Part shown: positions 1,398 through 23,154 of the stretch, one piece after another
Layout: each line of letters starts with the position of its first letter
Position numbering within the stretch: position 1 is the stretch's first letter
From: an uncultured Oscillospiraceae bacterium
Lineage (GTDB): Bacteria; Bacillota; Clostridia; Oscillospirales; Oscillospiraceae
Direction of reading: 5' to 3'
DNA: 36,611 nt
Assembly (NCBI GenBank): GCA_944387635.1
Contig: CALXFT010000019.1
Span: 1-36,611 of the forward strand
Notes under the pieces: model-generated
The model's input: the letters and a program-made list of their open reading frames with translations, nothing else
Told to the model about the DNA's origin: nothing
Databases searched by the model: none
Position numbers and translations under genes: made by a program

Positions 1398-1482
1398 CAA
1401 TTCAATGCGATAATCGCTGTGCTGAATATCCACATGGAACACCTTTTTGAGGACACCTTTAATATGGAAAAATCCCGGTTGA

Positions 1483-1525
1483 TGTGATAGTTGCAACATC
1501 AGCCGGGGTTTTCGTTTCCTATAAT
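1483..1525 (+). promoter_or_regulatory. Operator 2 and asrABC promoter
   Basis: TGTGATAGTTGCAACA at 1483-1498 is identical to operator 1. A consensus TATAAT lies at 1520-1525, 21 bp after the operator, and no good -35 is present at 17 bp. With a start about 7 bp after the -10, the operator centre falls near -41.5, the geometry of class II activation by Crp/Fnr proteins. Confidence 0.75.
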
Positions 1526-1575
1526 CGATACAGAACAACCGATACAAACCAACCAAAAAACAGGAGGAAATCATT

Positions 1576-3380: not shown

Positions 3381-3391
3381 GGAGGGATACT

Positions 3392-4354
3392 ATGGATACC
3401 AATACTGCGAAATTAAAGAAAAATGCCTTCCGTGTCACCAAGGAAAGAGGACTTACCGCATCCCGTGTCCGTGTTCCCGGTGGACACCTGGAAGCAAAAT
3501 ATCTGGGCGTACTGCAAAATATCGCTGAAACCTATGGCAACGGCACCGTTCACATCACCAGCCGCCAGGGTTTTGAGATCCCCGGCATCCCCTTTGATAA
3601 AATGGATGAAGTCAATGCCGCTTTGCAGAGTATCATCGAGGGTTTGGAGATCAACCAGGAGGCGGAAAACGAGGGTTATCCTGCCGCAGGTACCAGAAAT
3701 ATCACCGCCTGCATCGGCAACCGGGTCTGCCCCTACGCCTGCTATGATACCACGGTTCTTGCCAAGCGGATCGAGAAGGCAGTGTTTCCCAATGACCTGC
3801 ATTTCAAGATCGCTCTCACCGGCTGCCCCAACGACTGCGGCAAGGTCCGGATGCACGACTTTGGCATTATGGGTATGACCGAACCCCAGCTTGACCCCAA
3901 CCGCTGCGTCAGCTGCGGTGCCTGCGTCAAGAAGTGTGAAAAAAAGTCCGTAGGCGCACTGACTATGCAGAACTACCGTCCCATCCGGGATGCTCAAAAG
4001 TGCATCGGCTGCGGCGAGTGTGTCATCAACTGCCCCAACCGGGCCTGGACTCGTAGCGAACAGAAGTATTACCGGCTCACGCTCCTGGGCAGAACCGGTA
4101 AGAAAAATCCCCGGATGGGCGAGGACTTCATCAAGTGGGCAGACGAGGAAAGCATCATTAAGATCATTCTGAACACCTACGACTATGTAAAGGAGTACAT
4201 CAATCCCAATGCTCCCGGCGGCAAGGAACATATCGGCTACATCGTTGACCGCACCGGCTTCGAGGAGTTCAAACGCTGGGCATTGAAAGATGTAAACCTG
4301 CCCGAAAAGGCAGAGGTCATGTCTCCCTTGTACTGGAAGGGTATCAAATACTGA
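3392..4354 (+). CDS. asrC: Anaerobic sulfite reductase subunit C (sirohaem subunit)
   Basis: Catalytic subunit of AsrABC, 320 residues. The sirohaem/[4Fe-4S] ligand pattern of sulfite/nitrite reductases is intact: C107-x5-C113 (CIGNRVC) and C145-x3-C149 (CPNDC). It is followed by two ferredoxin motifs, CVSCGACVKKC near residue 172 and CIGCGECVINC near residue 204, as expected for AsrC. The N-terminal half contains the substrate-site signature TSRQGFEIPG. Start ATG 3392 follows GGAGGG directly after the asrB stop. All three subunits are complete, so the enzyme is predicted to be functional. Physiologically it could detoxify or respire sulfite, for example that released from taurine or sulfonates; this is inference. 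Confidence 0.94.
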   Translation: MDTNTAKLKKNAFRVTKERGLTASRVRVPGGHLEAKYLGVLQNIAETYGNGTVHITSRQGFEIPGIPFDKMDEVNAALQSIIEGLEINQEAENEGYPAAGTRNITACIGNRVCPYACYDTTVLAKRIEKAVFPNDLHFKIALTGCPNDCGKVRMHDFGIMGMTEPQLDPNRCVSCGACVKKCEKKSVGALTMQNYRPIRDAQKCIGCGECVINCPNRAWTRSEQKYYRLTLLGRTGKKNPRMGEDFIKWADEESIIKIILNTYDYVKEYINPNAPGGKEHIGYIVDRTGFEEFKRWALKDVNLPEKAEVMSPLYWKGIKY

Positions 4355-4366
4355 GGAGAAAGTGCT

Positions 4367-4612
4367 ATGCTGGAAGGATGCCAGGGAAAACCCCGGACAC
4401 CGACGATTATTGAAAAGGTCTGCCCACAATGTGGGGCGGAGATTGAGATGTTCTCCATTGATACGCAAATGGCTTGTGAAAAATGCGGATTCATTGCCTA
4501 CAACGATACCTTAAGCTGTGTGCAGTGGTGCCAGTATGCCAGAAAATGCGTGGGCGATGAAATGTATGAAGTCATGATGAAGATTGCTGCAGAGCAAAAG
4601 GCAAGAAAATAA
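4367..4612 (+). CDS. Small zinc-ribbon protein of the asr operon
   Basis: Protein of 81 residues starting MLEGCQGKPRTP. Two CxxC knuckles are visible, CPQCG near residue 19 and CEKCG near residue 36, followed by CVQWCQYARKC, so one zinc or rubredoxin-like iron site plus an extra Cys group is likely. It resembles the N-terminal zinc-ribbon part of clostridial proteins in which the same ribbon precedes an HD domain; here no HD domain follows. It lies 12 bp after asrC with an AGGAG site and belongs to the same operon. A role in cluster assembly or electron transfer would be a guess. Confidence 0.75.
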   Translation: MLEGCQGKPRTPTIIEKVCPQCGAEIEMFSIDTQMACEKCGFIAYNDTLSCVQWCQYARKCVGDEMYEVMMKIAAEQKARK

Positions 4613-4655
4613 TGATGGCCGGTAATGGGAGAAATCCTGTTGCCGGCTATTCGAA

Positions 4656-4698
4656 TGTGACTTTTGCAACATCATTTCACTCTGTTGACTGGTATCAT
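4656..4698 (+). promoter_or_regulatory. Operator 3 and promoter of the ferredoxin-cupin-hcp operon
   Basis: TGTGACTTTTGCAACA (4656-4671) is the third copy of the operator. TATCAT at 4693-4698 lies 21 bp downstream, exactly the same spacing as at the asrA promoter. The predicted start puts the operator centre near -41.5. Confidence 0.72.
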
Positions 4699-4730
4699 TA
4701 CGATAGAAAACTACGAACGGAGGTATTACC

Positions 4731-5417
4731 ATGATCCGAAGAATCATTACCATCGATGAAGAGAAGTGCAACGGCTGCGGTCTGTGCGCCGATGCCTGCC
4801 ACGAAGGTGCCATTGGCATTGTAGCTGGCAAGGCGAAGCTGCTCCGTGAGGACTACTGTGATGGTCTGGGAGATTGCCTGCCCGCTTGTCCCATGAACGC
4901 CATTTCCTTTGAGGAACGGGAAGCCCCTGCCTACAACGAAGCGGCTGTGTTGGCTGCGAAGAAAGCCAAGGAAGCACCGCTGCCTTGCGGTTGTCCCGGC
5001 TCTGCCTGCCAGACAATCCAGCACTCTGCTCCCGCCGGGGATGTGTATGTTCCCAGTGAACTGACCAACTTCCCAGTGCAGATCAAGCTGCTGCCGCCCA
5101 ATGCCCCCTATTTCGATGGCGCAGATCTGCTGATCGCTGCGGATTGCACTGCCTATTCCTACGGCAATTTTCACCACGATTTCATGCAGGATAAGGTGAC
5201 GCTGATCGGCTGCCCCAAGCTGGATGCGGTGGATTACGCTGAAAAGCTGACCCAGATTTTCAAGTACAACAACATCCGCTCCATTACCGTCACCCGGATG
5301 ACCGTTCCCTGCTGCGGCGGCCTGAGCCATGCAGTGAAAACCGCTCTGGAAAACAGCGGCAAAAACATCCCCCTGCATATCGTTACCATCAGTCCCGACG
5401 GACGGATCATTACATAA
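4731..5417 (+). CDS. Hcp-linked ferredoxin-type iron-sulfur protein
   Basis: Protein of 228 residues. The N-terminus is a two-cluster ferredoxin module: CNGCGLCADAC (residues 13-23), then CDGLGDCLPACP near residue 43. A Cys-rich linker CGCPGSAC follows (about residue 87). The C-terminal half contains LIGCPKLDAVDYAEKL and VPCCGGL, typical of the ferredoxin proteins next to hcp in clostridia. It probably donates electrons to Hcp. The start is ATG 4731 with GGAGG 7 nt upstream. It is first in the operon controlled by operator 3; the cupin gene follows after 12 bp. Confidence 0.85.
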   Translation: MIRRIITIDEEKCNGCGLCADACHEGAIGIVAGKAKLLREDYCDGLGDCLPACPMNAISFEEREAPAYNEAAVLAAKKAKEAPLPCGCPGSACQTIQHSAPAGDVYVPSELTNFPVQIKLLPPNAPYFDGADLLIAADCTAYSYGNFHHDFMQDKVTLIGCPKLDAVDYAEKLTQIFKYNNIRSITVTRMTVPCCGGLSHAVKTALENSGKNIPLHIVTISPDGRIIT

Positions 5418-5429
5418 GGAGGAAATGCT

Positions 5430-5753
5430 ATGATTGAACAAGTTTATCATCTGACACAAGGCAACACGAAAACCATCGAAAAGATTCTGATGGATGATGA
5501 GATCCACTACATGCATATGATCCTGAACAAAGGCGAAGGTCTGCCGGAGCATTTCTCTAACGCAAAAAGTGTTTACATGACTGTTGTGCGTGGTCGCCTT
5601 TCCATCGCTCTTGATGAGCAGGAATCTCACGAGTATCCCACAGGGACTATGTTAAAGATCCCCTTTCACACACGGATGAATGTACGAAATCTTCATGATG
5701 AAACTCTGGAATTGATCGTGGTGAAAGCTCCCGCACCTCAAAATCAGAAATAA
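5430..5753 (+). CDS. Cupin domain protein
   Basis: Small single-domain cupin of 107 residues. The first cupin box is degenerate: GEGLPEHFSNAKSVYMTVVRG keeps one His and the terminal Gly but lacks the usual HxH pair. The second part, LKIPFHTRMNVRNL, keeps one His in the expected strand. Metal binding may therefore be altered, and the protein may act as a sensor or accessory factor rather than an enzyme. The AAGGAGG site overlaps the stop of the ferredoxin gene, and hcp follows 21 bp later, so the three form one operon. Such cupins often sit beside hcp in clostridia; their role is not known to me. Confidence 0.8.
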   Translation: MIEQVYHLTQGNTKTIEKILMDDEIHYMHMILNKGEGLPEHFSNAKSVYMTVVRGRLSIALDEQESHEYPTGTMLKIPFHTRMNVRNLHDETLELIVVKAPAPQNQK

Positions 5754-5774
5754 CTTTCTAAAGGAGACTTGACT

Positions 5775-7367
5775 ATGTTTTGTTTTCAATGTGAACAAAC
5801 CGCCGGCTGCAAAGCCTGTGCGGGCAATGTAGGTGTCTGTGGCAAGAAAGCAGATACCGCAGAACTTCAAGACAAGCTGACTGGAGCGCTGATCGGTTTG
5901 GCCCGTGCTACTGAGGGCAACGAGCATGTTGTCAGCGATTCCACCGCCACCGTGGTCGTGGAGGGCCTGTTTGCCACTCTGACCAATGTGAATTTTGATA
6001 ATGACGCCATCCTGGCCATTATGGACCGGGTGGAGCTGGAAAAGCAGAAGCTGGTTCCCGAATGCTACAAGTGCGCTTCCGCTTGCGGCAGAAACAACGA
6101 CTATGATATGAGCAAGCTGTGGAACGCGAACGAGGATATCCGCTCCCTCAAGTCTTTGATCCTGTTCGGCATCCGTGGCGTTGCCGCTTATGCCTACCAT
6201 GCAGCCGTTCTTGGGTACAAGGATGATTCCATCCACAGATTCCTGTACAAAGCCCTGTTTGCCATCGGCATGGACGACTGGGGTATGGATGAACTGCTGC
6301 CCATTGTTCTGGAAGTGGGCGAAGTGAACCTCAAGTGCATGGCTATGCTGGACAAGGCCAACACCGAAACCTTCGGTCATCCGGAACCCACTTCCGTCAG
6401 CCTGACTGTAGAAAAAGGCCCCTTTATCGTCATCACCGGTCACGATCTTTACGATCTGAAGCTGCTGCTGGAGCAGACGGAGGGCAAGGGTATCAATATC
6501 TACACCCACGGCGAAATGCTGCCTGCCCATGCCTATCCGGAGCTGAAAAAGTATCCCCATCTGAAGGGCAACTTCGGCACCGCATGGCAGAATCAGCAGA
6601 AGGAGTTTGCTGTCCTGGCTGCACCCATTCTGTTCACCACCAACTGCCTGATGCCTCCCAAGGCCAGCTATGCTGACCGGGTGTTCACCACCGAAGTAGT
6701 TGGTTATCCCGGTATGCAGCACATCGGTCCGGACAAGGACTTTACCCCGATCATCGAAAAGGCTTTGGAGCTGGGTGGCTTCGATAAGGACACCACCTTC
6801 CCCGGCATCAACGGCGGCGAGACCGTCATGACCGGCTTTGCCAGAAACACGGTTATGAGCGTTGCCGGAACCGTGATCAATGCTGTCAAGTCCGGTACTA
6901 TCAAGCACTTCTTCCTGGTGGCAGGCTGCGATGGCGCAAGACCCGGCAGAAATTACTATACCGAGTTCGTCAAACAGACCCCCAAGGATACTGTGGTGCT
7001 GACCCTGGCCTGCGGCAAGTACCGCTTTAATGACCTGGATCTGGGAACCATCGGCGGTCTGCCCCGTCTGCTGGATATCGGCCAGTGCAACGATGCCTAC
7101 TCCGCCATTCAGATTGCTGTGGCTCTGGCAGAAGCCTTCGGCTGCGGGGTCAACGATCTGCCTCTGTCCATGGTACTTAGCTGGTACGAACAGAAAGCCG
7201 TCTGTATCCTGCTGACCCTGCTGCATTTGGGCATCAAGAATATCCGTCTTGGCCCCACACTACCTGCTTTCGTTTCTCCCAATGTGCTGAACTTCCTAGT
7301 TGAGAAGTTTAATATTGCCCCCATCACTACTCCGGAAGAAGATCTGAAGGCTATTCTCGGTGAGTAA
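5775..7367 (+). CDS. hcp: Hybrid cluster protein (hydroxylamine reductase)
   Basis: Hcp of 530 residues. It carries the hybrid Fe-S-O cluster and is linked to nitric oxide, hydroxylamine and S-nitrosylation stress. The N-terminal Cys set C3, C6, C15, C22 has the Cx2Cx8Cx6C spacing of the clostridial [4Fe-4S] class rather than the [2Fe-2S] enterobacterial class. The hybrid-cluster ligand regions are all recognisable in order: GHDLYDL, THGEMLPAH, TTNCLMPP, LVAGCDGARPGR, TLACGKYRFND, LDIGQCNDAYSA and the final YEQKAVC. ATG 5775 is preferred over the upstream TTG because AAGGAG lies 8 nt before it. Last gene of its operon; a terminator follows. Confidence 0.95.
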   Translation: MFCFQCEQTAGCKACAGNVGVCGKKADTAELQDKLTGALIGLARATEGNEHVVSDSTATVVVEGLFATLTNVNFDNDAILAIMDRVELEKQKLVPECYKCASACGRNNDYDMSKLWNANEDIRSLKSLILFGIRGVAAYAYHAAVLGYKDDSIHRFLYKALFAIGMDDWGMDELLPIVLEVGEVNLKCMAMLDKANTETFGHPEPTSVSLTVEKGPFIVITGHDLYDLKLLLEQTEGKGINIYTHGEMLPAHAYPELKKYPHLKGNFGTAWQNQQKEFAVLAAPILFTTNCLMPPKASYADRVFTTEVVGYPGMQHIGPDKDFTPIIEKALELGGFDKDTTFPGINGGETVMTGFARNTVMSVAGTVINAVKSGTIKHFFLVAGCDGARPGRNYYTEFVKQTPKDTVVLTLACGKYRFNDLDLGTIGGLPRLLDIGQCNDAYSAIQIAVALAEAFGCGVNDLPLSMVLSWYEQKAVCILLTLLHLGIKNIRLGPTLPAFVSPNVLNFLVEKFNIAPITTPEEDLKAILGE

Positions 7368-7384
7368 TTTACCCATACAGCCCA

Positions 7385-7414
7385 AAATGCGTCCCAGGTG
7401 ACTGGGACGCTTTT
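7385..7414. terminator. Bidirectional terminator between hcp and the convergent gene
   Basis: Perfect 8-bp stem GCGTCCCA (7389-7396) / TGGGACGC (7403-7410), flanked by AAAA on the left and TTTT on the right. It serves hcp on the plus strand and the gene ending at 7417 on the minus strand. The same stem sequence recurs at 8911-8939. Confidence 0.85.
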
Positions 7415-7416
7415 GG

Positions 7417-8061
7417 CTACTCATATCGATTGGGACAATAGTGGATCAGAAGATCAATATCTCCGTCAGTTTTGAACTCACAGTCTACACCATAGTTTCC
7501 GGCAGCAAACCATGGGTGTGCGTTTAATAGTGGCTGAATTGTCCGATCCTCAAAGCTGATAACAGCATACTCAGCCGGGGGCTGGTCAGTAAACCACAGG
7601 TCATTTATGGACTTGAGGCAGGTCTGGCAGAGTTTGCTCTGGATCATTTCCCGGTCAATGTCATACTGCACTCCGGTTATCTGAACACTTGCATAGGCAT
7701 TGTCCGGGAAGCAATAGGCATGGGCATAGCGGTCTGCTTCCTTATCGCTCAGTCCTACGCTGGACATATAGTCAGCTGGTTCTTCGATCAGATTTCCGTA
7801 ATCGTCATAGCGGTTGATCTCCAGATACAGCAGTTCAAATGTATTCAGATTGACAATGCCCACATTATCCTCGCCCCAATATGAGTAGCCATTATTCGTA
7901 CCGCATACAAAGCATTCTTCTTGCGTGATATTAGACACATAATCAATGTGTTCATATTCCTTTGGTGTCTGCTCCTGGGCAGCACTGATCCTCGCTACAA
8001 TAGTAATCACAATAAGCATAGCAAGCGCACCCGCGAGTGCCGATAAGATACACTTTTTCAC
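7417..8061 (-). CDS. Membrane-anchored or secreted protein of unknown function
   Basis: Protein of 214 residues starting at GTG 8061, with AAAGGAGG 7 nt upstream; a longer frame to 8130 has no ribosome site and would overlap the upstream gene extensively. The N-terminus is a lysine pair followed by a hydrophobic segment (ALAGALAMLIVITIVARISA), then a polar extracellular part with two CxxC pairs (CFVCGT and CQTC). I do not recognise the family. The start codon overlaps the stop of the SLOG-domain gene (GTGA), so the two are translationally coupled. The paired CxxC motifs could form disulfides or bind zinc. Confidence 0.7.
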   Translation of the reverse strand: MKKCILSALAGALAMLIVITIVARISAAQEQTPKEYEHIDYVSNITQEECFVCGTNNGYSYWGEDNVGIVNLNTFELLYLEINRYDDYGNLIEEPADYMSSVGLSDKEADRYAHAYCFPDNAYASVQITGVQYDIDREMIQSKLCQTCLKSINDLWFTDQPPAEYAVISFEDRTIQPLLNAHPWFAAGNYGVDCEFKTDGDIDLLIHYCPNRYE

Positions 8062-8534
8062 TCCAAATCCTCCTTTGCGATGTTGATATGAAGGACACCC
8101 TGTTTTTTTGCATATTTCATGGTTTGCCATGCACCACCGCTTTCCCGCTGGATGCAGAATACTACCAAATCAGATCTGTCCACCATGGCCCGGTTTCTGG
8201 TCTGGTGGGCATTTTTGTAGTGGCTCCCGGCAGCGGCTTCGCACACTTCAATTTCATCGTAATAATCCCGGAAAGATTCTTCATTATCCCGGAACTCTGC
8301 GGTCAAATACGGCTGCACCCAGATGTGGGCGCTGTTATCGCTCCGGTACTCCCGCTTACATCGGCGTATGGCGGACGAAACAAGCTGGTCAAATTCTCCG
8401 TCTCGGCCCACAAGACATTCTACATACTCCTTGTTCCGTAGCAGCGTTTGTATAAGCTGTTCCAGTCTGCGCTCAATTTCCAGTGCATTCTCGATGCAGC
8501 GATGCCCAAAGAAGCTAACTGTATAAGTGTTCAT
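8058..8534 (-). CDS. SLOG superfamily protein (DUF1273/YpsA-like)
   Basis: Protein of 158 residues. It opens with MNTYTVSFFGHRCIEN, the strand-GHR motif of the YpsA/DUF1273 branch of the SLOG (DprA/LOG-like, Rossmann) superfamily. It contains the mid-region AAGSHYKNAHQTRNRAMVDR and LVVFCIQRESGGAWQTMKYA, whose Gly-rich loop is the usual nucleotide-binding end of this fold. SLOG proteins bind nucleotide-derived ligands and occur in mobile and defence contexts (family knowledge). Here it is coupled to a membrane-anchored protein and divergent from an XRE regulator, which suggests a ligand-sensing pair, but the ligand is unknown. Confidence 0.78.
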   Translation of the reverse strand: MNTYTVSFFGHRCIENALEIERRLEQLIQTLLRNKEYVECLVGRDGEFDQLVSSAIRRCKREYRSDNSAHIWVQPYLTAEFRDNEESFRDYYDEIEVCEAAAGSHYKNAHQTRNRAMVDRSDLVVFCIQRESGGAWQTMKYAKKQGVLHINIAKEDLE

Positions 8535-8591
8535 CCATAGTCCCCCATCAAATATGTTCCGCCCGTCACCTTTCCTTATTATATATAATTA

Positions 8592-8634
8592 TTTACTTTA
8601 AGTAAAGGTTTCGCTATTTTGTGTCAGTTATAAT
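8592..8634 (+). promoter_or_regulatory. Palindromic operator and -10 box before the XRE gene
   Basis: TTTACTT-T-AAGTAAA at 8592-8606 is a 7-bp-arm palindrome. TATAAT lies at 8629-8634, with only a weak -35 near 8605. The palindrome sits between the divergent SLOG and XRE genes and is a good candidate site for the XRE protein. Confidence 0.5.
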
Positions 8635-8675
8635 TTGTTCGGTTACTTGGTAGCATATTATTGGGAGGTGGAACT

Positions 8676-8906
8676 ATGCGAACTGAGTACGCCGAAAAGT
8701 ATATCACACTGGGCTTGAAGATTGCCTACTACCGCAAGAAGGCTGGTTATACACAAGAGGTCTTTGCAGAAAAGATCGGTAAAAGTGTCAACTTTATGTC
8801 GCAGGTGGAAGGTACAGGAACCGTGAGGGGTGTTTCTCTGGAAACACTGTTCAAAATCGCAGATGTTCTTGGGATTCCTCCCGCAAAGTTACTGGAAGAT
8901 GATTAA
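8676..8906 (+). CDS. XRE family helix-turn-helix regulator
   Basis: Single-domain HTH_3 protein of 76 residues. The motif GLKIAYYRKKAGYTQEVFAEKIG places the first helices, SVNFMSQVEG the recognition helix, and SLETLFKIADVLGIPP the closing helices. The start is ATG 8676 with GGGAGG 7 nt upstream. It is probably a repressor of itself and of the divergent SLOG gene via the palindrome at 8592. Short Cro-like regulators of this kind are common in integrative elements. Confidence 0.88.
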   Translation: MRTEYAEKYITLGLKIAYYRKKAGYTQEVFAEKIGKSVNFMSQVEGTGTVRGVSLETLFKIADVLGIPPAKLLEDD

Positions 8907-8910
8907 ATGT

Positions 8911-8939
8911 TTAATGCGTCCCAAGTTGGGACGCATTAA
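8911..8939. terminator. Bidirectional terminator after the XRE gene
   Basis: Perfect inverted repeat with 14-bp arms, TTAATGCGTCCCAA and TTGGGACGCATTAA, around one central base. CTTTTC follows on the plus strand. It separates two convergent genes. The core GCGTCCCA/TGGGACGC is identical to that of the terminator at 7389-7410. Confidence 0.75.
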
Positions 8940-8953
8940 CTTTTCTGTGGTAG

Positions 8954-9244
8954 TTATTCTTTTGTGTGAATCCCCCTTTTCTTCGCCAGCTCGCTTGCTG
9001 CCTTGCGGCGGTCATCGGAGTAGGGTGCTGTCAACCGGATACTGATCCGGCTCTTGTCGATCTCGAATCGCAGACCACCTTGCCCATCATCATCGGTCTG
9101 CTTGCACAGCTCCGGGTATCTTTCTGCGAACTTCCTCATACGCTTCTTTAGGTTCGTATCGTGGGTGTAAACTTCCGCAAGGGGGTCTTTAGCGTTGTAG
9201 TACAGATCGGTTGTCTTCTGTTTTTTCGTAAGACCTGTTTTCAT
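8954..9244 (-). CDS. Small conserved mobile-element protein
   Basis: Protein of 96 residues starting MKTGLTKKQKTTDLYYN. The ATG at 9244 has AGGAGG 6 nt upstream; the frame continues upstream without another site. The protein is basic and charged, with a central MRKFAERYPELCKQ and a C-terminal ISIRLTAPYSDDRRKAASELAKKRG. Proteins of this kind follow the DnaC-like gene in clostridial integrative and conjugative elements (recalled association). Its function is unknown. It lies downstream of the RepA-DnaC fusion on the same strand. Confidence 0.6.
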   Translation of the reverse strand: MKTGLTKKQKTTDLYYNAKDPLAEVYTHDTNLKKRMRKFAERYPELCKQTDDDGQGGLRFEIDKSRISIRLTAPYSDDRRKAASELAKKRGIHTKE

Positions 9245-9388
9245 AGAAATCCTCCTATTTTTCGTTATTTTTCCTCGGCTCTTGAGCCGGGAAAAAAGGT
9301 CTGTTTTCCGATGGGAAGCTTCCAAATGATGTCTGCATCGTTTGGAAACCTGCTATCGGATTTTTTGCGTTTTTTCCGGGTCTTGACG

Positions 9389-10435
9389 TTATCTTTCGTA
9401 GTCCCGGTTGGGCTGTTTTTTTCTGGGTTCCGGCTGGTGTCTGGCAGGCGGTTTTTGCACCGGCGGTTCCAGCTTTCTCTCGTCCTCCCGGAGCAAATGA
9501 TCCACATCCTGCTGAGCTTCCATCATAGTGATAGCACTGTACTGCTTCCCATGGGCTTGCTGCAATCTATCTCTTGCATCCTGGGTGTAGGTCTTGCGCA
9601 GGGTCTGTCGCTGGGTATGAAGTTCGGCCTTGTCCACGCTCTCTGCCTTGTTCAATTTTCGGATGTTCTGGTCATTGACCCGGATCGCCATGCACCGTTT
9701 CAGCACCCGGTCATAGATTCTCTCCCTTGCAAGATCTGCCGGATTTTTCAATTCGTCCACCGTTAGATTGGTGGTCACAATCATAGGAAGCTGGCTGCGG
9801 TATCGGCTGTCAATGATGTTGAACACCTGCTCTCTGGCAAACTCGGAATTCCGTTCCACACCCAGATCGTCGATGATCAGCAGCGGAAAGAAATTGAAGC
9901 TATCGATATAAGCATTCCGGTCACCGGAATACATATCAGTCAGCTTGTTCAGGAGTCTTGCGAAGTTGGTCATCATCACCGGCACACCCTCGTCCAACAG
10001 CGCATTGGCGATGCACCCGGCGATAAAGCTCTTACTTTGCTTATTACTTGTGGACAGTTTTTTGTCTGTCTGCGACTTAAAACTTGTCCCTTCGGTGGGA
10101 CAACTTTCTGTCTGTACCTTCACATAGATTTTGCTGGGCAATCCTGCCCCTTGCCGCTTTCGGGAAATGAGTCCCTGCCGTTCCAACGCTGCTAACGCAT
10201 TCTTCACAGTCATCTCACTTTTTCCGCTGGCCTCCGCCAGAGCCTCGATTGTGTAGTAGATGAACACATGACCCTGTTCATCTTCCCAGCCGTCATTTTT
10301 CATTGACAGCCTCGCCCGGTCTAGCAGCAATACATATACCAGCTTTGCCGTTTCGCTTATGTCCATCGTCAACAGAAATCTTGGGTATGCCATATATGCC
10401 GGGATTTGGCTGTTTTTTCGTAAGAGATGCGTCAT
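9389..10435 (-). pseudogene. RepA-DnaC fusion created by deletion
   Basis: One open frame of 348 codons joins parts of two normally adjacent element genes. Residues 1 to about 130 are the N-terminal winged-helix domain of a replication initiator protein A (SQIPAYMAYPRFLL, MTVKNALAALERQGLI). From about residue 135 the sequence is the distal half of a DnaC-like loader ATPase (SKSFIAGCIANALL, Walker B LLIIDDLGVER, VTTNLTVDELKNP, RIYDRVLKRC). The N-terminal part of DnaC is missing, and the junction cuts into the Walker A loop, leaving SNKQSKS where a GxxxxGKS is expected. The last 70 residues (QQDVDHLLREDE, proline/lysine-rich tail) may come from a third gene. GGAGG lies 7 nt before ATG 10435. 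ATPase activity is unlikely. Confidence 0.75.
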
Positions 10436-10533
10436 GTGCTCACCTCCGATCTCATAAAAAAGACCTCCTTTGATAGATTCATTGCCGGAGTTTCCCCCTG
10501 CCCCTAAATCTTATCAAAAAGAGGTGGTTTTGA

Positions 10534-10568
10534 CATTGAACGCCAATTGAGCGCAAATTGACAAAAAG
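10534..10568 (+). repeat. Left copy of an inverted iteron repeat
   Basis: Contains three ATTGA units at 10535, 10546 and 10557, that is, exactly 11 bp apart, in the context ATTGAACGCC, ATTGAGCGCA, ATTGACAAA. The segment is repeated in inverse orientation at 12161-12195 with about one substitution and one indel over the first 28 bp. The pair brackets the NB-ARC gene remnant. Confidence 0.7.
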
Positions 10569-10609
10569 AATGAGCGAGATTCCTTTTTGCGGAACCTCGC
10601 TCTCATTCG

Positions 10610-10990
10610 TTATACAAGTAGTTTTTGATTTTTCTGTCTGCTGACAAGTGCTGCCTGCCCGATTTCCTGCCGCTTCTGCTCCAGGAGTGCCGGTTCATCC
10701 TCAAAGACCATTTCAAAAATTGCCATGGCTCGCCGATGGTGGAGCTGCGCCTGGGCCGTATCACCCTTTACCACGCAAATGCTTCCCATAACTTGCTGGA
10801 TCAAGCCATAATCCAGGCACTGATCGGAATTGAGTTCCTGCACCTTCCGTGCCAGCTTCAAGAGTGCAGAATAGGCTCGCTGGGGTTCGCCCATGTCGGT
10901 CAGAAGCGCTGCGTAATTGCAGATCTGCGTCACGCTAGGTAGCTTTCCTGTTTCTGCCGTCTTTGGTGGTACCGATCTTATCTTCTGCAT
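10610..10990 (-). pseudogene. TPR-like C-terminal fragment of the NB-ARC protein
   Basis: Frame of up to 126 codons, out of register with the upstream ATPase gene and overlapping its last 56 bp. It contains helical-repeat segments: ICNYAALLTDMGEPQRAYSALLKLARK, typical of tetratricopeptide pairs (shown here only in part), and then LIQQVMGSICVVKGDTAQAQLHHRRAM. The first residues in this frame are a frame-shifted reading of the ATPase gene. The middle of the protein is probably deleted, since an NB-ARC/TPR protein would normally have several hundred residues between these parts. Confidence 0.65.
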
Positions 10991-12149
10991 CCAGAGCGGC
11001 TGTTTCCCTTTCCAGTTTATCCAGCAGCGCCTTGGGTTTCAGCAAACCGTTTGCCAGTAGCCTTGCCGCCAGTTCTACGGCGAAGGTATGTCCGTGGAGC
11101 AAATCAATAATCTGGATGATTTCATCCTGCTTTTTCTCCGTTTCCGGGAAGAACTTGCCCATCAGTTCCACCAAGGTGTCCGGGTTCAATTCACCCACCT
11201 CAAGCGAGATATGATTCTCATATCGGCTGCGGGTGGTGAATAGAATTCTGCAACGGTACTTCAGCATCACATCCAGGAACTGATCCTGGGATACGGTGAC
11301 ATTGAAATTATCCACGATCAGCAGCGTATCTTCCCGCAGACTGCGCAGAAAGCGGTTATGCCGCTTGAACCTGGTATCGTCACTTTCGTCCGGCAGATCG
11401 TCCGCAAAGTCAAGATCAATCACCGCCTGCTTCAGATCTCCGAGGTAGTTGACATAGATGACATTGGTGTACTCTTTGCCGTACTGTTTTGCATACGCCT
11501 TTGCAAGCTCACTCTTACCAATACCGGGAATGCCATGCAGAAAAACCTTGCTGTGATCTACCATCAGCGCATGGAGCTGTTCCACCTCCTGTTCCCGCCC
11601 AAGGAACCACCGGCAAGGCCGGGAAATGTCGGTATCGAAAATATAGTCCACCACTGCTGGGGACAGATTGCCCGGTGTCAGAAGCTGCTTCTTCCGTACA
11701 TCACGCTTCTCGAAACGAAGCTGCATAGCAAGGCATAGGATTTCCATGATGAAGATTGCTTCATCGTTATCGTCCTCGAATGTATAGCCGTCCGTCAGTT
11801 CCATTTTCTTTTGCGGGGACACATTGGGAGCCTGTAGCACAAGGTCATACAGTTCCTGAGCTGCCATGGCGCTGTCCGGCATGATAGGCAGTAACCGCTC
11901 TTTAATTCTCCGAACCAGCTTCCATTGATTATCTTTCTCCTGGTAGAAGCTTATAATCGTGGGACTCAACCGTGCCAAGCCATTGATCCACCGGCAGACC
12001 TGTCCCTGGTCAAATTCCATTGCCGTCTGGGGACTGAATCCCAGATCCATAAACAGTGAATCCAAAAAATCAGCCTGATTGCCAAAGTTTTCATCGGGGA
12101 TATTGCGCCGTAGCACCGTCATCACCGATGCAAAATCCAATCGTTCCAT
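10935..12149 (-). pseudogene. NB-ARC/STAND-type ATPase, C-terminally truncated
   Basis: Frame of 404 codons with start ATG 12149 (GGGAG 7 nt upstream). Residues 1 to about 180 form an uncharacterised N-terminal domain. The NB-ARC core follows: FLGREQEVEQL, Walker A HGIPGIGKSELAKAYA near residue 210, Walker B DTLLIVDNF, ILFTTRSRYE, and the HGHTFAVELAARLL motif corresponding to the GLPLA box. The frame ends soon after, in DGRNRKAT, where the sequence shifts into the TPR-like frame at 10610-10990. STAND proteins act as signal-dependent switches, some in phage defence (family knowledge). This copy lacks its sensor repeats in frame and is probably inactive, unless a recoding event joins the frames. 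Confidence 0.72.
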
Positions 12150-12160
12150 TTCTTCACTCC

Positions 12161-12195
12161 CTTTTGCTCAATTTCCGCTCAATTGGCGTTCAATG
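12161..12195 (-). repeat. Right copy of the inverted iteron repeat
   Basis: Read on the minus strand it matches the 10534-10568 copy and again has three ATTGA units at 11-bp steps. It lies directly upstream of the NB-ARC start, between its ribosome site and a minus-strand AGGAGG, so it is also placed to be an operator for that gene. Confidence 0.7.
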
Positions 12196-12211
12196 CAAAC
12201 CTCCTGCGTTT

Positions 12212-12226
12212 CCCTTATAATAAGGG
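12212..12226. promoter_or_regulatory. CCCTTAT-A-ATAAGGG palindrome
   Basis: Perfect 7-bp arms around one base, containing a TATAAT at 12216-12221. It lies in the space between the NB-ARC gene (minus) and the 75-codon gene (plus), so it may be an operator or promoter core for either. Confidence 0.4.
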
Positions 12227-12352
12227 TACAAAAACACCTTAGATGACTCCAGTATACATTCTTCTCCAGAAAATGTGTAAACAAATTTCAAACATATTTT
12301 CGATAAGAAGCGACAGCAATCGACATCTTAGGTTTTCCAGTATTCCGGGCAA

Positions 12353-12580
12353 GTGCCCAAGGAGGTGACCGTTATCCGAAGCATGGCGCCGATCAACTTG
12401 ATCGTGTATTACCCCAAAACCGAAGAAGGCCAGTTAGAGCTGGCGAAACGGGTGTCCGATGTCCACGCCACAGCAGTAACCCAGCGGATCAAATCGCTGA
12501 ACTGCCCCACAAGCCAGAAACTGGAGCTTTTGGATGCGGTCATCGAAACCGTAAAAACAAGAAGCAGGGAACAGACTTGA
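12353..12580 (+). CDS. Small integrative-element protein of unknown function
   Basis: Up to 75 residues; recognisable core RSMAPINLIVYYPKTEEGQ, then KRVSDVHATAVTQRIKSLNC and LELLDAVIETVK. Short proteins with this core are common in clostridial integrative elements (recalled, not searched). The start is uncertain: GTG 12353 opens the frame but lacks a ribosome site. A perfect AAGGAGGTGA at 12359-12368 would better serve ATG 12383, giving 65 residues, though with long spacing. The stop lies inside the stem of the following terminator. Confidence 0.6.
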   Translation: MPKEVTVIRSMAPINLIVYYPKTEEGQLELAKRVSDVHATAVTQRIKSLNCPTSQKLELLDAVIETVKTRSREQT

Positions 12581-12603
12581 TGGAAAGTCTATTCCCTGCT
12601 TCT
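12560..12603. terminator. Strong bidirectional terminator
   Basis: Inverted repeat with 19-bp arms (12560-12578 and 12585-12603) and one mismatch, arms beginning AGAAGCAGGGAA. It ends in TTTCTT on the plus strand and is preceded by an A-rich stretch. It lies between two convergent genes and includes the stop codon of the left one. Confidence 0.8.
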
Positions 12604-12606
12604 TTC

Positions 12607-13605
12607 TTATTTTCCTTCCAATCTCTTCGCCGTTGCTTCCACAGACTCCAAGAAAGCTTGCTCCACCGGGGTTAAATCACCGCTATGAAGCTGTTTGTAC
12701 TTTTGATATTCCTGCTTTGCCTTTTGCTCAGCCAGGGCATGGGAAACAGAACCGGCATTCTGAAGCACTTCGCTGTCGGTCATTCGTAAGTAATCATCCA
12801 ACCGTACAATCCAGTCTTTCATATACATAGGCTTTTTCCGCATGGCTTGCAGCTCAGCCAGATCAAGATAGGCAGACACCAACCGATTCAGTGTTCCCAG
12901 TTCATCCTCATTTAGATAGTTCTTAGCGGTTTTCGCTTCCGCCAAGGTAGGCCGCCTACCCTTGATAACCGTCATACCCATCATGGGAAGAAGTGCATTG
13001 GCTCGTCCACTCACCAGTTCTGCCGCCGTCATGCCGGTTGCCGCATACAGCATTTTATTCTGCACGGTTTTGAAAAACAGAACGCTTTCCTCTGCGCTGG
13101 CAGAATAGTCTACACTGGTAGCATAAATGTCCAGTGCCTTTCGCCAGAAAACTTTTTCCGAAGAACGAATATCCCGGATTCTTTCCAGCAATTCATCAAA
13201 GTAATTGCCACCGCCGGATTTCTTCAGCAGATCGTCATTCATGGCAAAGCCCTTGATCATGTACTCTTTGAGAATCGTATTTGCCCAAATACGGAACTGT
13301 GTGCCACGCAGGGACTTGACACGGTATCCCACAGAGATAATTACATCCAAATTGTAATGATCAACTTGATAGGTTTTTCCGTCAGTTGCAGTTGTTGCAA
13401 AATTTGCAACAACTGCTTCTCTTGTTAATTCGCCCTCTGCAAAGATATTTTTGATATGCTTTGAGATTGTAGACTTGTCCCTTTGAAACAGCTCTGCCAT
13501 CTGATCCAAAGAAAGCCAGACTGTCTCATTTTCCATGTGGACATCAATTTTGGTTTTACCGTCTTCTGTTTGATAAATAATCAGCTCGGTATTATTCTCA
13601 CCCAT
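12607..13605 (-). CDS. RhuM family protein
   Basis: Protein of 332 residues, full length for the RhuM (virulence RhuM/Fic-partner-like) family. The N-terminal half contains the family signature: WLSLDQMAELFQRDKSTISKH, a helix-turn-helix, then VVANFATTATDGKTYQ and YNLDVIISVGYRVKS. The C-terminal half includes FRIWANTILKEYMIKGFAMND and a long helical region. Start ATG 13605 with GGGGA 7 nt upstream. RhuM proteins occur in islands and mobile elements; a DNA-binding role is likely from the HTH, while the biochemical function is not settled. It appears intact, unlike most neighbours. Confidence 0.85.
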   Translation of the reverse strand: MGENNTELIIYQTEDGKTKIDVHMENETVWLSLDQMAELFQRDKSTISKHIKNIFAEGELTREAVVANFATTATDGKTYQVDHYNLDVIISVGYRVKSLRGTQFRIWANTILKEYMIKGFAMNDDLLKKSGGGNYFDELLERIRDIRSSEKVFWRKALDIYATSVDYSASAEESVLFFKTVQNKMLYAATGMTAAELVSGRANALLPMMGMTVIKGRRPTLAEAKTAKNYLNEDELGTLNRLVSAYLDLAELQAMRKKPMYMKDWIVRLDDYLRMTDSEVLQNAGSVSHALAEQKAKQEYQKYKQLHSGDLTPVEQAFLESVEATAKRLEGK

Positions 13606-13687
13606 TGTGTAATCCCCACTGTTAATTCGTTTATTTGTTCTAATTATAGCACAGTTTCAAGGAAAAATCTACATCTTTTCATAGAGA

Positions 13688-14218
13688 TCATGCTCGTCCC
13701 TTAAAATGTCGCTCCCAGCATTTTATGCTGATAACCTTTCTGCCACTCTCCCATTCCTGCAAACAGCGGACAGGTATGCCCATTTTCCTTGCAAATGGTT
13801 TCTTGCCCAGGCCAAAAGATTCCCGGTATGCCCGGATGCGGTTGGCTTGTCCATCGTAAAGGAAGTGGTTGAATTCATCCAAGAAATCTGTTACCGGAAC
13901 GTCATAGAACTGCGCCAGTCGCTCTACCTTCTCCGGATCAATATGTTGTGTGAAGCCTTCCTCAATGGCCTTGTAAACACTGTGGGTCATTCCCACCTTG
14001 TCCGCAACCTCCACCTGCATCAAGCCCTTACTGTGTCTGCACCAGCGGAGCCTGTCCGGGACACTTTCAATTTCTTCGTATCTGCGATACCGCTGATTGA
14101 ACTGGGTAGCCTCCAAAATCTTCCGTGGGGCGCACAGTACGAAACTATGTATGTATAGAGGTGCATACCTTACAATAGAATTCTGTGTCTGGGAAAGGAC
14201 ATACAAATCAACCGACAA
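13688..14218 (-). pseudogene. Integrative-element HTH regulator, 5' end lost at the sigK junction
   Basis: The frame contains a typical element regulator: FNQRYRRYEEIESVPDR, the HTH LRWCRHSKGLMQVEVADKVG, HIDPEKVERLAQFYDVPVTDF, and the C-terminal second HTH-like region ESFGLGKKPFARKMG ending in KCWERHFKGRA. Upstream the frame stays open to 14314, but that part is antisense-adjacent sequence of the element end and sigK, with no ATG or ribosome site. A TTG at 14218 is the only weak start candidate. The gene is therefore probably truncated at its 5' end where the element meets sigK. Confidence 0.65.
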
Positions 14219-14247
14219 CCGGTCCAAAATGCGCCAAACGGGCCGTT

Positions 14248-14625
14248 TTAAGCCTTGGGGTGCAAGCTGCCAACTCTTAAAGTCGCTGGTGTGAGGGTAG
14301 CATTTTCCACACACCGGGCCGCGTAGGTGGCCAGCCGCGCGCCCTTATCCGGGTCGAAGGTGGAGATTCCCTTAATCAGGCCGATGGTGCCGATGGAGAT
14401 CAGATCCTCCTGGTCGGAGGTCTGGGCGTAGTACTTTTTCATAATGTGGGCCACCAGACGCAGATTTCGCTCAATGAGGATGTTCCGGGCCTCCAGGTCC
14501 CCCTGCCTGGCCAGGGTCAGATAGTGCCGCTCTTCCTCCTCGCTCAGGGGCTTGGGGAAGGTGCCCGTGTTCAGCTGAAGCGAATACAGCAGGGTGCTCA
14601 GAATCAGCCAGGCTGTGGTAAGCAT
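14248..14625 (-). pseudogene. sigK: SigK sporulation sigma factor, N-terminal half, interrupted
   Basis: From ATG 14625 (AGAGG 8 nt upstream) the frame encodes the SigK pro-sequence and region 2: a hydrophobic N-terminus (AWLILSTLLYSLQLNTG), FPKPLSEEEERHYL, ILIERNLRLVAHIMKKY, DLISIGTIGLIKGISTFDPDKG and ATYAARCVEN. SigK identity ends at CVEN; the next codons (ATLTPATL...) are foreign and the frame stops at 14248. Regions 2.4, 3 and 4 are absent from the window. The break is at the GAAAATG of ENE codons, where skin elements enter sigK in B. subtilis. Read as it stands the gene is inactive; excision of an intervening element in the mother cell could restore it. Confidence 0.85.
14297..14306 (-). 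other. Putative skin-type attachment junction in sigK
   Basis: On the minus strand the sequence is GAAAATG followed by CTACC. Intact sigK genes continue GAAAATGAG (Glu-Asn-Glu). The B. subtilis skin crossover core is AATGA; here AATG (14301-14304) is kept and the next base is C. Sequence to the left differs in base composition from the sequence to the right. Confidence 0.6.
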
Positions 14626-14858
14626 ACACATCACCTCTACCCAACTGTATTCGCCATTGCCCGTCCGTTTTCCTTCCGGCCCCGACGCGGTCTTTTTCAG
14701 CGCCGCCGGGACAAATCCGGACGTGCCGCCGCTGGCGCATTCTCCCGCTGCTTCCCTTCGTTACAGGGGTGTCATACACCGCAGGGCGATGCTTTCTTGA
14801 TTTTAATTAAATATTTACCATGAAAGTATCTAAAACGACGGTAAAATTCAAACATTTT

Positions 14859-14999
14859 CATGCTTATCGACTTTAAACAGCAGAAATTGCAGAGGACACA
14901 TGCCGACTCAAAAACCTGCGCGCCCCTTGGCTCCCCTTCACAAGGGGAGCTGGCAAAAATCTTTGATTTTTGCCTGAGAGGTCCATACCGCAGTACGTT
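14859..14999 (+). repeat. Interspersed repeat copy A, left end and hairpin
   Basis: Starts with the terminal motif TGCTTATCGACTT (14861-14873), then AAACAGCAG. Contains two hairpins, CTCCCCTT-CACA-AGGGGAG and GGCAAAAATC-TTT-GATTTTTGCC. The block from 14947 to about 15042, running past the end given here, is nearly identical (two differences seen) to 17003-17099 in copy B. Confidence 0.75.
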
Positions 15000-15103
15000 T
15001 TCTCGGGTGCTCAGATAGAACCGGGTGCTCCCCGCCCCCTCTCTCTATCTTTTTCGCCATTTGGCCGTTCTATTGTTTGTGATACTTGTCTCAGCCGATT
15101 CCA

Positions 15104-16459
15104 TTACGGAATCAACATAGCGTCCTTTCCTGCACTCCCATTTTGGAAAAACATCACAAAATAGATGGGCAGATAGGTGATCTTTCCCTTATGGGTGATC
15201 TGCCGCTGATTGGAGAGGACAAAGGCCCTTTGAACATGATATTCCTCGTTGCTGACAAAGGCATTGAGGGCGCTGTGCACGGTGTAATCCTTGCCGGACT
15301 TCACCTCGATTGGCACTGCGGACAAGCTCTCGTAATCGTCGATCAGGTAGTCCACTTCCCCCTTGCTTCGATTGTCATAGTAAAACAGCTTGTATCCATG
15401 GGCAATCAACTCGCTTGCCACCACGGTCTCGTACACCGAGCCCAAATTGATGGAGCGCACATCATCCAAAATGGCACGAATATTATTTCCGTAAAGAATG
15501 CCGGAAAGAATTCCCACATCATTCAGATACAGCTTCAGCAAATTCTTTCCTTCTGATTCGATCAAAGGAAATTGGGGCTTGGAAATCGCCTGAACATTCA
15601 ACGCGATCCCGGCGCTGATGAGGTATTCAAACTCATCCTGATAATCGCCAAAGGTCCTGCCCCTCTTGTTCTCGATCCTCTGGGCAACCACACGCTTCTT
15701 TTTATTCTCCATGTTGGAAGGAATCAAATCATAAACGCGGCGGATCATCAGCTTGCGCTCCTGGTCATACTTGGAGGCGTCCGCGGCGTAGTAGTCATGG
15801 ATCTCTTTCTGAATCTCCCGAACTCGCTGGATATTTCTTGTTTCCAAAAAAGCATTGACCGCATCGGGCAGTCCACCCACCAACAGATATTTGCGAAACA
15901 AGTCCATGATCTTGTTGTGGGTATTCTCATCCAAGGATTCCTGCTTCTTAAATTTGGCGCGCAAGGCAGAGATCACAATGGAATTCATTCCGTTGGCATA
16001 CAAAAACTCTTCAAAATCCAGAGGAAACATTCGTACCTTTCGAATGCTTCCCATAGGGATGGACGTCGTCTGGGCCAGGATCACGCCCAATAAGGAACCG
16101 CTGGCAATATAGGTAAACTTCCCGTCTTGGGATAAAAACTTGAGCAGGGTCAGCAAGTGAGGATATGCTTGAATTTCATCGATGAAAACAAGGGTATTTT
16201 CTCTTTCCTTCATTTGATTGCCGGCCAGCATGCTCAATTGCAGATAGAAATCTTCTACTGTTTTTATTCCCGCAAAGAGCCTGTCACCCAATGCGTCCTC
16301 TACCATATTGACTTCAATAAAGTTATCAAACAGCTTCTTTCCCACATGGCGGATAATGTAAGTTTTTCCGACCTGACGCGCGCCGTCGATCAGCAAAATC
16401 TTTTTAGAATTGGAACGCAAATGTTCTTCGATAAGACCTTCAATTTTGCGGTAAAGCAC
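15104..16459 (-). CDS. AAA ATPase with DUF4143 nuclease-like domain
   Basis: Protein of about 451 residues. The N-terminal AAA_14 domain has Walker A DGARQVGKTY, Walker B TLVFIDEIQ and sensor FTYIASGSLLG. A middle helical region contains KYLLVGGLPDAVN. The C-terminal DUF4143 domain has GEVDYLIDD and VPIEVKSGK, a PD-(D/E)xK-like nuclease pattern. GTG 16459 is preferred as start because GGAGG lies 8 nt upstream; the ATG at 16477 has no site. The promoter is clear on the minus strand: TTGAAA (16515-16520), 17 bp, TATAAT (16492-16497). The protein family is widespread and poorly understood. Here the gene is the sole cargo of a mobile unit and has an unusual operator array. It is AT-richer than its surroundings, supporting acquisition. 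Confidence 0.85.
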   Translation of the reverse strand: MLYRKIEGLIEEHLRSNSKKILLIDGARQVGKTYIIRHVGKKLFDNFIEVNMVEDALGDRLFAGIKTVEDFYLQLSMLAGNQMKERENTLVFIDEIQAYPHLLTLLKFLSQDGKFTYIASGSLLGVILAQTTSIPMGSIRKVRMFPLDFEEFLYANGMNSIVISALRAKFKKQESLDENTHNKIMDLFRKYLLVGGLPDAVNAFLETRNIQRVREIQKEIHDYYAADASKYDQERKLMIRRVYDLIPSNMENKKKRVVAQRIENKRGRTFGDYQDEFEYLISAGIALNVQAISKPQFPLIESEGKNLLKLYLNDVGILSGILYGNNIRAILDDVRSINLGSVYETVVASELIAHGYKLFYYDNRSKGEVDYLIDDYESLSAVPIEVKSGKDYTVHSALNAFVSNEEYHVQRAFVLSNQRQITHKGKITYLPIYFVMFFQNGSAGKDAMLIP

Positions 16460-16478
16460 TGCATTCACCTCCGGCATT

Positions 16479-16586
16479 ACTTTTCAATCATATTATAACA
16501 GCCAAAATACAACTTTTCAATAATTTATATACTTCCGATTTATGACTTTTCAAACTTTTTTCTTTGTGCTTTGACAAACTTTTCAA
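16479..16586 (-). promoter_or_regulatory. Four ACTTTTCAA boxes at exact 33-bp spacing
   Basis: ACTTTTCAA (minus strand TTGAAAAGT) occurs at 16479, 16512, 16545 and 16578. Only the 9-mers are conserved; the 24-bp intervals differ. The second box contains the -35 TTGAAA of the ATPase gene and the first lies just downstream of its -10. Spacing of three helical turns places all boxes on one face of the DNA, as expected of a cooperatively bound regulator. Confidence 0.8.
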
Positions 16587-16591
16587 AACAG

Positions 16592-16630
16592 ATATCCCCA
16601 TATACCATTCTGTCAGGTATATGGGGATAT
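16592..16630. repeat. Perfect 15-bp inverted repeat
   Basis: ATATCCCCATATACC (16592-16606) and GGTATATGGGGATAT (16616-16630) around a 9-nt loop. No proper U-tract follows on either strand, so it is not a standard terminator. It lies just upstream of the four-box array. Confidence 0.7.
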
Positions 16631-16680
16631 ATTTCTGCCTATGTATGGATCTTGCCCTTGAAGTATCTCTCCCAAGAACT

Positions 16681-16838
16681 TCAGCTGACTTGCTTTGTCT
16701 CTGCCTCCCAGCAGCGAATGGAATAATCGCTGGTAAACGCCTTTTTGCCGAGGCCCATGCCCATTCGGTATTCCCGAACAGCAGCCCCCTGCCTGGCCAG
16801 GGGCAGATCGTACACGCGCGGGGCAGTTGGCTCTGACC
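16681..16838 (-). pseudogene. Remnant of an element-type HTH regulator
   Basis: The minus-strand frame reads RVYDLPLARQGAAVREYRMG, MGLGKKAFTSDYSIRCWEAE and ends TKQVS-stop. This matches the layout of the C-terminal HTH region in the regulator at 13688 (RIRAYRESFGLGKKPFARKMG). There is no start codon or upstream domain, so it is a fragment. Confidence 0.5.
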
Positions 16839-22724: not shown

Positions 22725-23154
22725 GGATGCTTATGGACCTTGCGCGGCAGAAAACGCGGATAACCGTTGCTTCTATGCAGACTTCCGTCTGGGCAGCTGC
22801 CAGGATGCTTACGCTTCACACGGTCACCGCAGCGATTTGGCGCTTAAGGCAATACCGGCACGAAACGAGGCGCGCGCCGGGAGGGGTCCAGGGGAGGGCG
22901 GCTTTGAGATATCAACTCAGCGCCTCCCCTGGCCGCGTTCTTTGCTGGCATTTCTGTGCGGGACAAGAAAGGAAGGCCCCCGGAAGGGGTCGGGGAGCAC
23001 TTGCCCCTGTCTCAGCGCTTCACCAGAGCGCAATGCCCAAACCTCTCAGTCAAAAATCAAAGATTTTTGCCAGCTCTCCTGGAAGGAGAGCCAAGGGGCC
23101 TGGCTGTGATCGAAACACTATGCATAAGGCCGACGCTTTCTGAAACCTTTTGCC
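22725..23154 (+). repeat. Interspersed repeat copy C, within the methyl-transfer locus
   Basis: Left end GATGCTTATGGACC is a degenerate terminus. The block from 22787 (GTCTGGGCAGCTGCCAGG) to about 22900 matches copies D and E. The right part, with TCAAAAATC-AAA-GATTTTTG hairpin and ACTATGCATAAGGCCGACGC, matches copy B inverted. The last ~25 bp of the usual right end are missing. TTAAAAC occurs on both sides (22715 and 23155). It separates the corrinoid protein gene from its activator by 540 bp. Confidence 0.7.

Follow-up and report, generated by a model that had tools for sequence, protein, structure and literature searches.

A probable skin-type element with asrABC and hcp as cargo splits sigK in an uncultured Oscillospiraceae bacterium

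sigK Is Split at Codon 111

The DNA considered here is a stretch of 36,611 nucleotides (the window), which is the whole of contig CALXFT010000019.1 (C19) in a metagenome bin of the genus Faecousia (G000; 2.36 Mb, 106 contigs, 90.5% complete); coordinates without another label refer to it. A member of the genus, F. intestinalis strain CLA-AA-H192, has been described from culture (PMC12056005). The gene for the sporulation sigma factor SigK is broken at codon 111 in the window, and we consider it very likely that the break is due to an element of the type of the Bacillus subtilis skin element, which would be cut out in sporulation with sigK rejoined, and which carries genes for an anaerobic sulfite reductase (asrABC) and a hydroxylamine reductase (hcp) as cargo. 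The insertion site is called site B below. The features at the break are as follows, the crossover position being transferred from relatives.

14302 to 14634, minus strand: 5' half of sigK, pro-SigK residues 1-111, ending in ATYAARCVEN
14276 to 14330, minus strand: attL of the site-B element, with symmetry centre and predicted crossover dinucleotide AA at 14303-14304 within AAATG
14645 to 14667, minus strand: promoter-like block 5' of sigK, GGACGGGCAATGGCGAATACAGT, seen by eye in most of nine loci compared
1 to 14301, no strand: attL-side portion of the sigK-intervening element, within which the contig ends

The 128-residue frame at 14248-14634 (minus strand) matches the SigK model only over residues 10-114 of 227 (TIGR02846, E 1.2e-44), and after CVEN (residue 111) it turns foreign, reading ATLTPATLRVGSLHPKA and then a stop. 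Close relatives with an uninterrupted gene continue beyond this codon, with EILMHFR or a sequence near that. An earlier note on this DNA, made from its letters alone, had claimed that the frame is SigK through ATYAARCVEN and foreign thereafter, and both the range of the model match and the CVENEILMHF of intact relatives bear this out; a second sigK was not found in the window's own assembly. At the DNA level the break reads GTGGAAAAT before and GCTACCCTC after the junction, and the AATG that the earlier note described as retained is indeed there, the shared core sitting within AAATG. The 75 bases past the break are identical in three bins, namely that of the window and the sister genomes G001 and G159 (contig CASFNR010000003), and because the same 75 bases follow sigK in these genomes the junction is no chance event. 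The N-half is 64-90% identical to the other full N-halves of the genus and begins with about 20 residues that are mostly hydrophobic (by eye). The block GGACGGGCAATGGCGAATACAGT upstream of it may be a SpoIIID-like box with a sigma-E-like -10; in G018 it is without its GGAC part (by eye).

Base composition also changes at the break. G+C is 49.6% for 1-14301 vs 58.3% for 14302-36611, and it drops leftward across the break in 500-base steps (0.60, 0.50, 0.40), in line with the shift described earlier; however, 14801-16800, to the right of the break, is likewise low (0.41-0.49), and composition alone is therefore no proof of the break.

Gene Content of the Element

Element-type genes were said to begin directly past the break, and a helix-turn-helix (HTH) regulator, a RhuM family gene, a STAND ATPase and a RepA_N/DnaC-like gene were found there, followed by the cargo.

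13688 to 14314, minus strand: HTH regulator (Xre-type HTH) adjoining attL; the frame's first start codon lies inside sigK
12607 to 13605, minus strand: RhuM family gene, an additional block that the elements of G001 and G159 lack
12353 to 12580, plus strand: 75-residue protein, putative recombination directionality factor (RDF)
10610 to 12149, minus strand: STAND/NB-ARC ATPase with TPR, in two frames (10935-12149, 10610-10990)
9389 to 10435, minus strand: RepA_N/DnaC-like replication protein
5769 to 7367, plus strand: hcp, hydroxylamine reductase, element cargo, above NCBIfam cut-offs
1576 to 4354, plus strand: asrABC, anaerobic sulfite reductase, element cargo, all three above cut-offs (asrA 1576-2586, asrB 2484-3380, asrC 3275-4354)
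674 to 1363, plus strand: Crp/Fnr-type regulator beside the asr genes, by eye from the translation, 99% identical to G001

The ATPase is a single frame of 765 residues in G001, and the hcp DNA is 97% identical to that on G001 contig C27. Pfam recognised no phage structural gene among the 10 window open reading frames (ORFs) scanned, sigK included, and PHROGs gave regulators and helicase loaders only, with no structural gene, on five window ORFs and one of G001. From the ORFs scanned, the element looks non-phage, integrative and skin-type. The asr/hcp cargo occurs in G000 and G001; cargo of relatives also includes a type III restriction-modification system with FRG (G001), a type I system by eye (G028) and polysaccharide-type genes (G072).

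The Missing End of the Element Lies in Sister Genomes

The earlier note had proposed to look for the 3' half of sigK and a large serine recombinase beyond the left end of the contig; two sister genomes, G001 and G159, supply both together with attR, but they were not found in the window's own assembly. In G001 attL is on contig C16, while the recombinase, attR and the sigK 3' half are on C27, as is the asrABC and hcp DNA, about 14 kb from the site-B recombinase. Since one contig carries all of these, the redox island is placed inside the element, which supports the claim that the left 14.3 kb with asr/hcp belongs to a sigK-intervening element. Three blocks of C27 correspond to window 317-8074 (asrABC, hcp) at 92.4-97.2% identity, window 10464-14301 minus the RhuM block matches C16 past attL at 99-100%, and the window thus appears to bridge the two contigs. 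Positions 1-316 had no match, and 8075-10463 no counterpart, in the G001 stretches compared; the latter is mostly matched in G159. In G159 the element is the same apart from a rearrangement and its own gains and losses; it carries a site-B recombinase, and asrA/hcp-region DNA and attL share one contig. A tRNA-like fragment, which matches the start of contig C43, sits inside the element (locus L121 at about 3480-3520, L299 at about 7410-7450) at the point of the G159 rearrangement; ARAGORN predicts no tRNA at this place.

Blocks shared among the three elements are 92-100% identical. In the comparison set against the sigK N-half, the G001 blocks are 93.7-100% identical to the window, and the sigK N-halves of G000 and G001 only 81.0% (226 of 279 aligned, of 324 bases). 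Because the blocks are near-identical while sigK differs this much, the element has probably moved between species.

A search of the window's own genome with that half of the G001 element which bears the recombinase matched only a restriction gene (65%), 51 bases (window 317-367) and a 37-base tRNA-like fragment, so the rest of a G001-type element was not found on the other contigs. The four PF07508 matches in the assembly lie on three contigs, and the three that were placed in the recombinase tree fall outside the site-B clade. The match at C46:9170 was rejected as a sigK 3' half, as it has sigma-r4 alone and is a YlxM-like gene beside a signal recognition particle gene (by eye); the best C-half match in this genome is SigE, not SigK, and the other weak sigma-r4 matches were not individually identified.

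Attachment Sites and Rejoined Frames

The same kind of attL junction is present in G001, G017, G018, G019, G028 and G159. It reads GGAAAAT up to the break and GCTAYCCTCACACC after it, and attR reads GGGGAGAGGATAGCAAAY up to the break and GA after it; the arms differ in G011 and some others. Joining the attL and attR of relatives yields a clean attB, which reads AAAATGAGAT, and an attP that is an inverted repeat in all six relatives (17-19 of 24 arm positions paired, a level reached in none of the 2000 shuffles made for each), with its symmetry centre AA in the AAA common to G001 attL and attR. The joined sigK halves are open in 6/6 of the relatives' pairs, five at full length and G018 up to its own break at a further site, C. 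Joined G072 and G159 score 278 bits each with NF004471 (cut-off 252) and 269 and 271 with TIGR02846 (cut-off 298.65), as compared with 277 and 265 for the intact G008 gene. SigE of the window's genome also passes the NF004471 cut-off (261), but scores 359.7 as SigE.

Three Fixed Sites Across the Genus and Order

The genus survey covered 61 genomes, the window's own included, with status set by hand from match ranges and junction sequences. sigK is interrupted in 28, intact in 22, without match in 10 and cut by a contig end in one (G069). The interruptions fall at three fixed sites: A (codons HIMKK then KYY), B (codon 111, core within AAATG) and C (SRSYVSR then IEK). Site A alone is occupied in 8 of the interrupted genomes, B alone in 6 and C alone in 7; the remaining 7 of the 28 are interrupted at two sites (A+B in 6, B+C in 1). 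All three sigK pieces were found in G018, G019, G028 and G064. In this survey the middle piece was not found in G031, G033 and G075, the N piece in G016, G025, G030 and G036, nor the C-half in G000 and G023, and the N piece was the only one found in G005. G083, counted as intact, has an extra middle piece (L243, G083:C72, 4406-4552) 70% identical to that of the window, with a class-A recombinase, which is a second copy or contamination. L236 (G064:C24) holds two sigK N-half copies (90%) at 3985-4287 and 8456-8758, 4.5 kb apart, both with a site-A attL.

Complete elements were found within single contigs. At site B, N-half, element and C-half share a contig in G011 (4.3 kb) and G072 (16.8 kb), and in other families in G206, G218 and G280; site A is represented by G274, G260, G329 and G305 and site C by G018, G027, G034, G066 and G071. 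The shortest of these elements is 3.8 kb (G027, site C) and the longest about 78 kb (G206, site B).

A search of 197 genomes of the order with full SigK gave matches that, among those listed, were mostly full length. Twenty were re-examined, picked for a weak or cut best match and hence a chosen set and not a rate, and 15 of these are interrupted by match ranges: G329, G260, G305 and G274 at site A, G206, G218, G280, G191 and G207 at site B, and G237, G190, G240, G259, G325 and G165 at site C. G274 also ends at site C, so the A+C combination occurs too; A+B and B+C were seen on IMG/VR contigs in more distant SigKs. The junction sequence was read in 13 of these (all but G240 and G165), and a class-matching recombinase adjoins the junction in 9/9 A or B genomes and 0/4 of the C stretches compared. 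On L148 (CALYRG010000001) a sigK N-half with a site-A attL at 404-680 is followed about 9 kb on, at 9916-10191, by an uninterrupted sigK, the first 277 bases of which (some upstream DNA included) duplicate the N-half at 96%; a duplication of the 5' half seems to have bypassed the element there.

Each Site Has Its Own Recombinase Clade

One representative each of recombinase classes A, B and C carries PF00239, PF07508 and PF13408 (Resolvase, Recombinase, zinc-ribbon). In a tree of 41 recombinases, with several long branches and the rows B_G011 and C_G034 trimmed by hand, sites A (11 recombinases), B (12) and C (8) each fall on one branch (100/99); site changes only twice over the tree, a number as low in 0/200 shuffles. 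The C group also takes in three IMG/VR recombinases for which no sigK piece was seen. IMG/VR contigs L276, L277, L278 and L285 have four or five tandem serine recombinase genes, one of or near the site-C class. The site-B recombinase is mostly on the side of the sigK 3' half (on the attL side in G017, G011 and G207), and several have a sigma-A-like promoter, TTTACA-N17-TATAAT (by eye). Matches of the query 'Brec_L100' to sigK antisense frames were discarded as spurious, that ORF running antisense into sigK.

Matches of the 75-residue protein come from 14 distinct site-B elements, and no other locus searched gave one. It had no match, for example, in the stretches compared of the site-B genomes G018, G019, G033, G075, G206 and G280, and not every site-B element was covered at the right end. 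Small ORFs of other kinds were seen solely upstream of recombinases of class A (11 rows) or class C (15 rows from 13 distinct places), the profiles having been built from 9, 7 and 7 members, which match by construction. By first-start coordinates the class-A small ORFs overlap their recombinase. The 75-residue protein is modelled as a two-helix hairpin (mean pLDDT 81.5), and a search for developmental promoters revealed no uniform motif upstream of its gene. From their size, place and class specificity, the small ORFs of all three classes are candidate directionality factors.

Proposed Course of Events and Its Alternatives

A large serine recombinase would have inserted the element into sigK at site B, leaving the gene split in vegetative cells. 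In sporulation the recombinase, presumably made constitutively and turned to excision by a small co-factor, for which the protein at 12353-12580 is our candidate, would cut the element out in the mother cell; sigK would be rejoined in frame and pro-SigK made, with the spore keeping the element. The split, the att sites, the in-frame halves and recombinases of relatives, the constraint described next and the near-identical elements beside differing sigK genes are all seen in the sequences; excision, and its confinement to the mother cell, are inferred.

That sigK is instead permanently disabled, with the N-half a pseudogene and sporulation no longer completed, is unlikely. Constraint on the split pieces is about that on intact genes, with median dN/dS, rough because synonymous sites are near saturation, of 0.099 vs 0.084 over residues 20-110 and 0.216 vs 0.228 over residues 112-207 (29 split genomes including G159, 21 of 22 intact; G065 and G069 left out). 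No in-frame stop was found in the aligned residues up to 209 in any of the 29 split genomes, save at residue 209 in G066 and G081, where it is attL_C sequence. The C-half has no start of its own and would hardly have remained constrained unless rejoined, and regulated rejoining appears far likelier than permanent loss; between the two outcomes that the earlier note had offered, excision in the mother cell or a disabled SigK, the open joined frames and the retained constraint favour the former. The sporulation background points the same way: SigE and SigG of the window's genome are over cut-off, a SigF-like factor is below the SigF cut-off, and SpoIIID (E 2.3e-30) is below its curated cut-off like most of the genus. 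SpoIIID was detected in 48/61 genus genomes (12 over cut-off) and in 19/19 with completeness of at least 90% and contamination of at most 5%.

Several observations nevertheless weigh against excision, and those given first would also suit a disabled gene. The SigK C-half, attR and a site-B recombinase were not found in the window's own 106-contig assembly; residues 20-64 taken alone are somewhat looser in split genes (0.123 vs 0.085); and the 10 genus genomes without a sigK match include G002, which is 98% complete and has a SpoIIID match, so that loss of SigK in this genus seems possible; uninterrupted G062 has an in-frame stop at 174. For the rearranged G159 copy, excision may not be simple. 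Neither an attP nor an excised circle was found in 136 genus genomes (at most 2 mismatches) or, by exact match, in viral contigs; a one-mismatch match in G135 was rejected as a terminator-like repeat beside an integrase-like gene. All data are assemblies, and pieces on different contigs of one bin could stem from different organisms. In G028 (L101, C58) and G033 (L102-L104, C16) one contig carries the N and C pieces but not the middle one, as if misassembled or rearranged; the G028 middle piece is on C97, and the 44 kb between the G033 pieces holds metabolic-looking genes.

The last case, together with a bin in 106 contigs in which the rest of a G001-type element was not found, could suggest that the junction arose as a chimera in assembly or binning, but the same 75 bases past sigK in three bins and the complete elements within single contigs at sites A, B and C speak against this, and we regard it as the least probable of the readings weighed. 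It is also very improbable that the break is real but asr/hcp is ordinary chromosome, with an element of only a few kb by attL. The contig does start at base 1 without a second att site, and the far end of the element cannot be read from the window by itself; yet the G001 contig with asrABC and hcp also bears the site-B recombinase, attR and C-half, the window appears to link it to the attL contig, and G159 joins asrA/hcp-region DNA to attL.

Relation to Known Elements

In skin of B. subtilis (SpoIVCA, skr), as here, sigK is interrupted and a large serine recombinase is involved; its core AATGA (PMC10745906) is like the joined attB AAAATGAGAT, and its small RDF gene overlaps the integrase gene by 101 nucleotides (PMC6957869), as the class-A small ORFs overlap theirs. 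In contrast, skin is 48 kb and phage-like, whereas no phage structural gene was recognised here among the ORFs scanned and the cargo is sulfite reductase and hcp; unlike in skin, the recombinase is on the 3'-half side in most site-B elements compared, several with a sigma-A-like promoter by eye. In skinCd of Clostridioides difficile (CD1231, CD1234) the recombinase is directly upstream of the sigK 3' moiety, as here, and a constitutive recombinase is paired with a separately controlled RDF, the scheme that we propose; C. difficile SigK is without a pro-sequence (PMC5025042), whereas SigK here begins with about 20 residues, mostly hydrophobic (by eye). sigK island IV of Bacillus cereus biovar anthracis may be likened to the G028 contig with type I restriction-modification genes between sigK pieces (by eye), but in the part of its description available it has a different recombination site without AATGA, no metabolic cargo named and one insertion per gene. 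The gin element of Bacillus cereus ATCC 10987 is non-viral, with restriction-modification genes and three serine recombinases (PMC5595907), and interrupts gerE rather than sigK. Among the matches listed in the openly available literature (titles, abstract openings), none was seen that reports a sigK element from Oscillospiraceae or a sigK holding two elements.

The window element is probably a further skin-type element, with metabolic cargo, and the occupation of sigK at several sites, and by more than one element, is a new form of the phenomenon. The skin element is said to remain 'an exception in clostridia' (PMC5025042); by comparison, sigK is interrupted in 28 of the 50 genus genomes in which its state is decidable. 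On balance we think it probable that sigK is a standing landing pad in this order, where three recombinase clades each own one codon-level site, metabolic, polysaccharide and defence elements come and go between species, and two may share one gene, such that SigK would be made only after two independent excisions (a mother-cell AND gate) while the spore line keeps the cargo. A sigK in three pieces under two recombinase systems would amount to a natural developmental excision switch with two inputs. With sulfite reductase and hcp as cargo, spore-gated elements could spread metabolic traits and not only phage remnants. Why elements settle in sigK becomes a testable question through the matched sets of recombinases, small ORFs and att sites.

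Two further repeats were noted in the window. An interspersed repeat of 106-181 bases (87-94% alike) lies in the chromosomal part at 22729-22909, 33855-34035 and 36506-36611, and a pair of 97 bases (98%) lies at 14947 and 17003.
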